Of a stretch of 64,000 nt of DNA, positions 4,015 through 6,646 are shown piece by piece. A program made the translations under genes and the position numbers. Origin of the DNA: Brevibacillus sedimenti. Lineage in GTDB: Bacteria; Bacillota; Bacilli; Brevibacillales; Brevibacillaceae. The notes beneath the pieces were generated by a model, which was not told where the DNA came from, ran no database searches, and saw only the letters and a list, made by a program, of their open reading frames with translations. Each line of letters opens with the position of its first letter. Positions within the stretch are counted from its first letter, which is position 1. The stretch spans positions 3,287,001-3,351,000 of the forward strand of contig NZ_CP064048.1 in NCBI RefSeq assembly GCF_020923495.1, written 5' to 3'.

Positions 4015-5361
4015 CTAGACTACCTCCCCGGCCAAGTCGTATTCGTAGGAGTGCGTAATCTTCACCTTTACGATTTTGCCCAGTTCGCCCTTGTATCCCG
4101 TGACGAACACCTCGCCGTCAATCTCTGGAGCATCGTACTGGGTGCGGCCGACGTAAATGTCATTGTGCCCTTCGTACCGCTCAATGAGCACATCCAGTAC
4201 CTTTCCGACAAAGCGGCCGTTTTGCTCGGCAGCCACTTCCCGCTGAATCTCCATCAGGATGTTGGCCCGTTTTTCCTTGGTCTCCTCATCGACGTGGTCC
4301 GGCAGTCGGCTTGCCGGCGTATCGTCTTCATTTGAATAGGTGAAGACGCCCAGCCGGTCAAACTTCACTTCCTTCACAAATTCACACAGCCGCTGGAAGT
4401 CCTCTTCCGTCTCACCGGGGAAGCCGACGATCAGGGACGTGCGCAGGGCGACGTCCGGTACGCGGGCGCGAATCTTCGCCACCAGTTCGCGAACATCCCG
4501 CTGGCGGCCGGGGCGGCGCATCTTTTTCAGGATATGATCCTCGGAGTGCTGCAGCGGCATATCGATGTATTTGCACACTTTGGGGTTGGTTGCAAACACC
4601 TCGATCAGCTCGTCGGTAAAGAAGCCGGGGTACGCATAGTGCAGTCTGATCCACTGAATCCCATCCACTTCGGCCAATCGGTTCAGCAATTCGGGCAGCA
4701 TGTGCTTGCCGTCGTAAATGTCCGTGCCGTAGTTGGTGGAATCCTGCGCGATCAGGCTGATCTCCACAATCCCCTGTTCGGCGAGATGCTTTGCCTCCTC
4801 CACGATCGATTCGATGGTCCGGCTGCGAAATCCTCCGCGCATCAGCGGAATGCTGCAGAACGTACAGGCGTTGTCGCAGCCTTCCGCAATCTTGATGTAG
4901 GAGGAATAAGTGCCCGCCTTCACTTTCCGTTTGACCACTTCCTCGTACGTGAAAACGGGATTGCCGACATAGACGGGCCGCTTGCCCGCGAGCGATTCAG
5001 CAATAATGTCCGTAATCGACATAAAATCGCCTGTTCCGACAATGCCGTCCACTTCCGGGATCTCCTGTAGAATTTCCTCTTTGTACCGTTGCGTGAGACA
5101 GCCTGCCACGACAAGCGATTTCAACTTGCCGGATTCCTTCAGCTCCGCCATGTCAAGAATCTTGTTGACCGATTCTTCCTTGGCGGCGTCGATGAATCCG
5201 CAGGTATTGACGATGACGACCGTTGCTTCTTCGGGGTTATCAACCAATTCGTACCCTTTTTCATCTATCAGATGGGCCATCATGTCCGAATCGACAAGAT
5301 TCTTTTCACAGCCCAGCGTAACGATCGCTACTTTTTCACGTGAGCCTACCTTCTCTGTCAT
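4015..5361 (-). CDS. rimO: Ribosomal protein S12 methylthiotransferase RimO
   Basis: A 448-residue radical-SAM enzyme that adds a methylthio group to an aspartate of ribosomal protein S12. The UPF0004 domain holds Cys18, Cys54 and Cys88 for one iron-sulfur cluster. The radical-SAM triad C162-x3-C166-x2-C169 (EGCDNACTFC) binds the second cluster. A C-terminal TRAM domain ends the protein. The sequence GCEKNLVDSD near the start is typical of RimO rather than MiaB or MtaB. B. subtilis is believed to lack RimO, so its presence between the RodZ-like gene and pgsA separates this organism from that species. It has its own sigma-A promoter and leads the transcript to the helicase. Confidence 0.95.
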   Translation of the reverse strand: MTEKVGSREKVAIVTLGCEKNLVDSDMMAHLIDEKGYELVDNPEEATVVIVNTCGFIDAAKEESVNKILDMAELKESGKLKSLVVAGCLTQRYKEEILQEIPEVDGIVGTGDFMSITDIIAESLAGKRPVYVGNPVFTYEEVVKRKVKAGTYSSYIKIAEGCDNACTFCSIPLMRGGFRSRTIESIVEEAKHLAEQGIVEISLIAQDSTNYGTDIYDGKHMLPELLNRLAEVDGIQWIRLHYAYPGFFTDELIEVFATNPKVCKYIDMPLQHSEDHILKKMRRPGRQRDVRELVAKIRARVPDVALRTSLIVGFPGETEEDFQRLCEFVKEVKFDRLGVFTYSNEDDTPASRLPDHVDEETKEKRANILMEIQREVAAEQNGRFVGKVLDVLIERYEGHNDIYVGRTQYDAPEIDGEVFVTGYKGELGKIVKVKITHSYEYDLAGEVV

Positions 5362-5406
5362 TTGTTTTCCTCCAATTGGTCACACCTGCCCAGATTACAC
5401 CTATTC

Positions 5407-5436
5407 AGTATAATATAAGCCCCAACAGAGTGTCAA
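5407..5436 (-). promoter_or_regulatory. rimO sigma-A promoter
   Basis: A perfect TTGACA -35 (5431-5436) and a TATACT -10 (5407-5412) with 18-base spacing lie on the minus strand, about 45 bases ahead of the rimO ATG. It lies just downstream (in transcription) of the fold-back element at 5455-5742. Confidence 0.8.
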
Positions 5437-5454
5437 AAGTGAAGAAAGTACGAA

Positions 5455-5742
5455 AGGCAAGCGAGATGCTTGCCTCAGGCTGAAGACAATGTGCATCGCA
5501 TGGCGGGATGGGCCAAGCGAGCTCCTTTGACGACCTGCTCAGCGGAAAAACGAAAGACGCGGGGATACACAGGGGACACAAGTCTCACTTCATCGAAACA
5601 CCCAGATGTTTGTCCCCTGCCCGCGTCTCGTTTTGGAGCGGACTTCATCCGCTTCTGTGCTGGGCGTCAAGCGAGCGAGCGGGCCCGATCTCCATCCGCC
5701 TCGGACTTTGTCTACACGCTTTGGCAAGCATGACGCTTGCCT
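5455..5742. repeat. 288-bp fold-back (MITE/REP-like) element with terminal inverted repeats
   Basis: This is the only gene-free stretch over 300 bases (5362-5740). Its two ends are inverted copies of each other: about 29 of 37 bases match between the left end and the reverse complement of the right end. Each end contains a small hairpin of its own, AGGCAAGC-N5-GCTTGCCT (5455-5475) and GGCAAGC-N5-GCTTGCC (5723-5741). The centre holds a second long stem: AAAACGA/AGACGCGG/AGGGGACA on the left (5547-5578) against TGTCCCCT/CCGCGTCT/CGTTTT on the right (5611-5634), capped by CATC/GATG. No convincing coding frame is inside. The right end overlaps the stop codon of the RodZ-like gene. It looks like a non-autonomous mobile repeat; it may also end that gene's transcript. 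Confidence 0.6.
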
Positions 5743-6646
5743 ATTGCGTAGGGGATTGTGCCATCGTAACGACGACGTTGGACGGCATGTATTTCATGTT
5801 GGATGTGTCTACATGCGCGCCGTTGACCGTCAACTCTACAGCCATCGGCTTGCCCAGACGGATGTATGCCGTCTTGCCCAGTTCGACGACGACTTCCTCG
5901 TCTTTCTTCAACGTGCCCTCTTTGACGTACTTCTTGCCCTTCGCCTCGGACACCCCGTACCAGCATTTGTCGTCGACAACTTTCAGTTTGACCGTGATCT
6001 TGTCGCCGCCGCTCAGCGTGTAATTGTACAGGGCCCCCTGCTGCGACTCGAATGTGATCGTCGCCTGCTGCTCGCTGCTCGGAACTTCCGGGTTGACCGC
6101 GGTCGAGCCGGGGTCTGGTTCCGTATCGGTGGACGGAGGGATAGGCGTTTGACTCTGCGGTGAAGGAGTTGGCGTCGCGTTTCCGCCCTGGCCCGGTTTC
6201 ACGATTTCCGCGCCCGGCGACAGGTTCCCCCCCGGCAGCGCCGGCTGGATGTTCATTCCGCTGTTGACGACAGCGATGTAGATCACCCCGATGATCAGCG
6301 CAATAAACAGCACCAGCAGCGTCTTGGTCAACCATCTTCCGGCCTGCAGCGGGTTGTTGGCGGCCACCACCCGGCGACGGCGCAGCCGTTCCACTTGTTC
6401 CTGCGGAGGTTGGGCAGGCAGGTCTGCCTGGAAGTGACTCATGATGTGGTTCGGATCAAGACCGACGGCTTCCGCGTAGCTCTTGACGAAAGCCCGTGCG
6501 TAAAAGTGGCCAGGGAGTACGTGAAAATGGCCCCTTTCTATGGCTTCCAAATATCGCCGTTGGATCTTGGTGATCCGTTGAATGTCGTCGAGCGTGATCC
6601 CTTTTTCTTCGCGGGCCCTTTGTAGTACTTGACCTAGCTCAGACAC
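5741..6646 (-). CDS. RodZ-like helix-turn-helix membrane protein (YmfM family)
   Basis: A 301-residue bitopic membrane protein. Residues 1-70 form a Cro/RodZ-type helix-turn-helix domain (MSELGQVLQRAREEKGITLD), followed by a basic stretch RRRR and one membrane span at about 107-127. A Pro/Ser/Thr-rich linker (about 140-190) leads to an extracellular beta domain of the DUF4115 kind (about 190-290). In this family RodZ links the MreB cytoskeleton to the cell envelope for shape control. It corresponds in position to B. subtilis ymfM, downstream of ymfK. The stop codon lies within the right end of the fold-back repeat at 5455-5742, so the last codons may have been altered by that insertion. Confidence 0.85.
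   Translation of the reverse strand: MSELGQVLQRAREEKGITLDDIQRITKIQRRYLEAIERGHFHVLPGHFYARAFVKSYAEAVGLDPNHIMSHFQADLPAQPPQEQVERLRRRRVVAANNPLQAGRWLTKTLLVLFIALIIGVIYIAVVNSGMNIQPALPGGNLSPGAEIVKPGQGGNATPTPSPQSQTPIPPSTDTEPDPGSTAVNPEVPSSEQQATITFESQQGALYNYTLSGGDKITVKLKVVDDKCWYGVSEAKGKKYVKEGTLKKDEEVVVELGKTAYIRLGKPMAVELTVNGAHVDTSNMKYMPSNVVVTMAQSPTQ

Follow-up and report, generated by a model that had tools for sequence, protein, structure and literature searches.

A miniature element with IS1182-type ends lies between two copies of the rodZ terminator hairpin in Brevibacillus sedimenti

The rodZ-rimO locus

The window (the whole stretch of 64,000 nucleotides of B. sedimenti DNA that was analysed) contains, at the end of a RodZ-like gene, a non-coding structure. 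The features of the locus are as follows:

4015-5361, minus strand: RimO/MiaB-like radical SAM gene, downstream of the element
5455-5475, unstranded: left copy of the target-site duplication, the rodZ terminator hairpin, AGGCAAGC-GAGAT-GCTTGCCT
5476-5721, unstranded: the mobile element proper, 246 bp, a non-coding MITE of an IS1182-type family
5476-5490, plus strand: left terminal inverted repeat, CAGGCTGAAGACAAT (family consensus CAGACTGAAGACAAA)
5482-5489, plus strand: internal-deletion junction, with one GAAGACAA left
5570-5619, unstranded: central stem-loop with arms 5570-5585 and 5604-5619, CAGGGGACACAAGTCT and AGATGTTTGTCCCCTG
5706-5721, minus strand: right terminal inverted repeat, CTTTGTCTACACGCTT (consensus CTTTGTCTACACGCTG)
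5722-5742, unstranded: right copy of the target-site duplication, TGGCAAGC-ATGAC-GCTTGCCT
5741-6646, minus strand: RodZ-like gene (HTH_25, RodZ_C), the terminator of which is the target

The earlier note on this DNA had described positions 5455-5742 as a 288-nt fold-back element, and the fold-back is indeed present well above chance (folding z about -9): the minimum free energy as DNA is -85.9, compared to -49.1 +/- 4.1 for shuffled sequences (z -8.95), and the folding z as RNA is -8.77 for the plus strand and -6.90 for the minus strand. The central stem formed by AGGGGACA and TGTCCCCT was also recovered. The outer coordinates were exact, but the unit is a composite of a hairpin (5455-5475), an element (5476-5721) and a second hairpin (5722-5742) rather than a single element. 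The small hairpins at the tips do exist, but what had been taken for sub-terminal hairpins of the element itself is the duplicated target site; the true terminal inverted repeat is imperfect, shorter (about 16 nt) and located just inside these hairpins (from 5476 inward and from 5721 inward). The element in the window is 81 bp shorter than the 327-bp copy L005, and full-length copies have two direct GAAGACAA repeats with a spacing of 81 bp; the window copy derives from the full-length form by an 81-bp internal deletion between these repeats.

The close relative G022 matches the window at positions 5000-5475 (97%) and 5723-6500 (91%), and the two matches overlap by exactly 20 bp, representing one hairpin (AGGCAAGCATGACGCTTGCCT) and no element. 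A single hairpin at the rodZ-rimO site was likewise seen in the 12 other congeners displayed. The comparison with strains lacking the element thus yielded an empty site, which demonstrates the insertion; it is the opposite of the single copy conserved at this site in relatives that, according to the earlier note, would have pointed to a fixed RNA or terminator. The left hairpin, followed on the minus strand by TTTCGTACTTTC, occurs once at the corresponding empty site of G022 and of other congeners, and the right hairpin has the same loop as the ancestral hairpin of G022. The loops of the two hairpins in the window differ (GAGAT versus ATGAC), a point against our reading of the structure. As had been noticed before, the right hairpin shares two bases with the rodZ stop codon (TAG, 5741-5743, minus strand). 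The insertion had been suggested as a possible modifier of the last rodZ codons and of the terminator; the stop codon overlaps the hairpin in element-free relatives too, and therefore the gene end was not altered.

A separate observation concerns the orientation of the loops: in the window copy (5455-5475 versus 5722-5742) and in copies L209 and L189, the hairpin of one side looks loop-inverted relative to the other.

Copies in the genome and duplication of the target hairpin

A search of the genome itself (3.93 Mb, one contig) yielded 43 matches with 87-95% identity, nearly all of which end before reaching the tip hairpins. Alignment of the flanks showed that full-length copies span CAGACTGAAGACAAA to CTTTGTCTACACGCTG and measure 327-345 bp. 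Mobility, on which the earlier note had been undecided, is evident from these at least 43 homologous copies and from the empty sites in relatives. The element is short (246-345 bp), free of a transposase and present in at least 43 copies, as expected of a MITE; in all, this genome has about 50 copies. Other miniature families, about 254 and 300 bp long, combine these ends with a different interior and behave in the same way. The copies are located just 3' of stop codons, with hairpin edges mostly within a few tens of bases of one, and only 3 of the 43 lie between divergent genes. No match to the MITE was found on plasmids.

Nearly every copy has the same hairpin on both sides, and the sequence of this hairpin differs between loci. 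The alignment of ends for target duplications suggested by the earlier note revealed a direct duplication of 18-38 bp (mean 26), different at each site, in 43 of the 54 copies analysed. In 95% of the duplicated copies the centre of the duplication was within 1 bp of the hairpin centre, and the hairpin score was on average 25 at the copies versus 13 in random windows. Duplication length correlated with hairpin span (Spearman 0.57, p 6e-5), although the span measure is crude and is lengthened by A- and T-tracts. Most duplications start with A and finish with T (A..T in 25 of 43). An inverted duplication of the hairpin was considered and rejected, the direct one being better in 47 of 54 copies. 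In about 11 of the 54 copies there was no clear direct duplication; in some of these the left and right hairpins do not match, as could result from recombination between copies.

We also found tandem arrays in which hairpins and elements alternate, for instance a triple MITE (L044, G000:C1:656312-657347), a double MITE (L045, at 891 kb) and a pair of intact IS copies in genome G019 (L121), consistent with re-insertion into a duplicated hairpin or with unequal recombination. The same MITE, its flanks identical too, was seen close to either end of the contig (at 6.9 kb and 3929.9 kb; G000:C1:1-8276 and about 3922984-3931259). The repeated ends suggest an untrimmed overlap of about 8.3 kb in a circular assembly.

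IS1182-family relatives

In this genome only fragments of an IS1182-family transposase were found in a search with PF13751 and NF033551, and thus no intact autonomous partner; MITEs usually coexist with a living partner but do not have to. The fragments lie at about 1369145-1369563, are bounded by CAGATTGAAGACAAA adjoining a hairpin, and are 42-44% identical over their C-terminal part to intact elements of congeners. The congeners G014 and G019 each contain six copies of such an intact IS (1551/1553 bp), the ends of which (CAGACTGAAGAGAAA and CAGGCTGTCGAGAAA in G014) are, like that of the remnant, similar to those of the MITE. The transposase of this IS has DUF772 and DDE_Tnp_1_6 domains and NF033551 as its best NCBIfam model, each half alone scoring below the cut-off of that model. 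It is encoded in two frames joined at an A6G stretch. In one intact congener IS (L111, 869-905) the frames are joined at GGAAAAAAGG, a join that suggests programmed -1 frameshifting. The related CDS on a plasmid (L263) is 1331 nt long, which is no multiple of three.

A stem-loop of 15-25 bp is duplicated around all 12 IS copies of G014 and G019, in most cases followed by a T-run, and in G006 one site free of the IS has just one hairpin. Three Paenibacillus IS copies likewise have the whole terminator hairpin duplicated. The simple dyad finder used here is crude, and 3 of 15 centres (G019_5601, G019_5603 and Pb2) fell on flanking A/T tracts; the duplications concerned are nonetheless self-complementary at 9/10, 9/10 and 10/11 positions, respectively. 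On plasmids, 7 of 8 IS copies have a duplicated terminator hairpin (from Brevibacillus, Bacillus subtilis, B. pumilus, Alkalihalophilus (annotated ISBspe1), Rhizobium, Acinetobacter and Aminobacter). In the eighth, from Providencia, the two hairpins differ from each other, a pattern expected from recombination between copies.

Other IS1182-family elements of the genus behave differently. Those of G011 (L246-L248 and L255-L258; ends GAGAGCCCTGCAAAAG) make duplications of about 6-7 bp; judged by eye, 5 of 7 copies have theirs within the loop of a terminator-like hairpin (e.g. AAAGCCCC-TTTCGA-GGGGCTTT) and two are unclear. The elements of G008 and G009 (L237-L245 and L259-L262, 13 copies; ends GGGGCTGTCCAGAAAG) show no target duplication; many are flanked by an A-tract at one end and a T-tract at the other, which would fit an element that has taken the place of the terminator hairpin. 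In terms of the pathways drawn in PMC5678879, the G011 elements match c, the G008/G009 elements a and the present element b.

Mechanism and alternative explanations

In our reading, to which we assign a probability of roughly nine in ten, the element is a non-autonomous MITE with IS1182-type ends that was mobilised in trans and inserted into the intrinsic terminator of rodZ, the hairpin being duplicated as a whole. Mobilisation in trans, probably by an IS that has since decayed, is deduced from the shared ends, as this genome yielded only fragments of an IS1182-family transposase. The DDE transposase would recognise the terminator palindrome by its shape, and the two element ends would be joined at the two 5' feet of the stem-loop, symmetrically about the dyad, after which repair would copy the whole hairpin to both sides. 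Such joining and copying would explain why the target duplications are variable in length (15-38 bp) and centred on the hairpin. That the stagger ranges over 15-38 bp and tracks the palindrome would find its simplest explanation in spatial proximity of the two attacked phosphates, such as a four-way junction would provide in an extruded cruciform, and we infer that an extruded cruciform or single-strand hairpin is what is recognised. The window copy lost the 81 bp between its GAAGACAA repeats afterwards.

Transcripts from flanking genes would cross the element, giving a structured 3' UTR, and then reach a hairpin with the original U-tract. For rodZ this means that the mRNA would pass the first hairpin, of which the U-tract is gone, traverse the element and end at the second hairpin with its original U-rich tail, so that terminator function is presumably kept.

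An explanation with the same element and target, in which the transposase reads the inverted repeat as duplex DNA with flexible spacing, is the most serious alternative, although we consider it rather unlikely. Duplications would be centred on the dyad under either model, but a stagger of 15-38 bp would be hard to reconcile with one rigid transpososome on B-DNA, and in this genus, related elements of IS1182 type seem either to cut at the loop or to remove the hairpin.

It is highly improbable that the structure is a fixed structured RNA or terminator of the rodZ 3' UTR. The very strong fold on both strands would suit such an RNA, as would the pairing kept in the central stem (5570-5619) with one compensatory change, a G-C to A-U double change in 8 of 20 copies. 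Nevertheless, two-sided changes were found in only 2 of 76 pairs, covariation that is too thin to claim an RNA function, the search of Rfam with the element gave a noise-level hit only and thus no match to a described family, and the element is absent from the rodZ site in the congeners inspected while being present at dozens of unrelated sites here.

Even less probable is a REP/RAYT or IS200/IS605-type element moved by an HUH (tyrosine) transposase that reads sub-terminal hairpins, as the earlier note had proposed from the hairpins at both tips and the central GGGGACA palindrome. The tip hairpins vary between copies and are duplicated target, inverted terminal repeats and long duplications (18-38 bp) are present, and matching ends are carried by DDE-type IS1182 elements; the empty sites, too, contradict this proposal. 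We know of no HUH element that makes a target duplication, and the traits of IS200/IS605 or RAYT-REP elements (absence of inverted repeats and of a duplication, an HUH transposase) were not those found here. Hairpins do flank nearly every copy on both sides, as they would if the element carried them itself and the duplications were only apparent, but their sequence differs per locus while being equal on both sides of one copy, and a single hairpin pre-exists at empty sites, which refutes this explanation, the least credible of all.

Group IIC introns also insert at intrinsic terminator hairpins. They are RNA-based retro-elements that insert beside the hairpin without duplicating it, and a group IIC intron, considered for the terminator adjacency, was rejected given the duplicated hairpin and no Rfam support.

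Relation to known elements and implications

Targeting of hairpins by the IS1182 family is already known. IS1272 and TnSha1 of Staphylococcus target stem-loops without a sequence consensus, often confirmed transcription terminators (PMC5678879, PMC4923244), and the family has been described as including members with palindromic targets. IS1272 and TnSha1 share with the present system an IS1182-family DDE transposase and the targeting of stem-loops. For IS1272, however, the hairpin is replaced or deleted (deletion in PMC4923244) and no target duplications were reported, pathways b and c being given as possible outcomes (PMC5678879). Such a replacement, with loss of the target hairpin and no duplication, was not observed for the present element, which has a hairpin on both sides and duplicates it as a whole in agreement with pathway b (Fig 13 of PMC5678879), there hypothetical. 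In the searchable open literature, which our search covered, we found no account of duplication of a whole terminator hairpin, which had previously only been drawn as that hypothetical pathway.

The same CAG...CTG ends are found in ISBspe1-like elements of about 1.56 kb with the duplicated terminator hairpin ACCACATCTATTGATGTGGT, one of which, on an Alkalihalophilus pseudofirmus plasmid, is annotated 'IS1182-like element ISBspe1 family transposase'. These are autonomous and have a transposase, whereas the MITE has the same end motif and a different interior. Like other bacterial MITEs (PMC10969869), the present one is short, non-coding and intergenic, with inverted ends, a high copy number and structured transcripts; what sets it apart from MITEs in general is a target duplication that consists of an entire terminator hairpin and varies in length. 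REPINs (RAYT) and IS200/IS605 elements are likewise repeated, hairpin-forming and intergenic; they depend on another transposase class, make no target duplication and are unrelated to the present MITE.

The target duplication left by most DDE transposases is short and fixed in length. We regard it as fairly probable that in a widespread IS1182 subgroup with CAG...CTG ends the secondary structure of the target sets the stagger of the cut, at the four-way junction of a cruciform, such that the duplication equals the stem-loop. If so, then together with the G011 elements (loop duplicated) and the G008/G009 elements and IS1272 (hairpin replaced), the family would cover all three outcomes that in 2017 were no more than sketched, and it would spread by insertion at gene ends with terminators preserved. 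Since the length of the duplication here varies with the hairpin that is entered, structure-guided target choice can be tested directly. Entering and duplicating a terminator would moreover be a benign way of multiplication, in which neighbouring genes retain their stop signal. Whole-hairpin duplication also occurs in a widespread and little-described group of bacterial insertion sequences, and the direct repeats of whole hairpins provide a clear signature for such elements and their miniature derivatives where annotation misses them.
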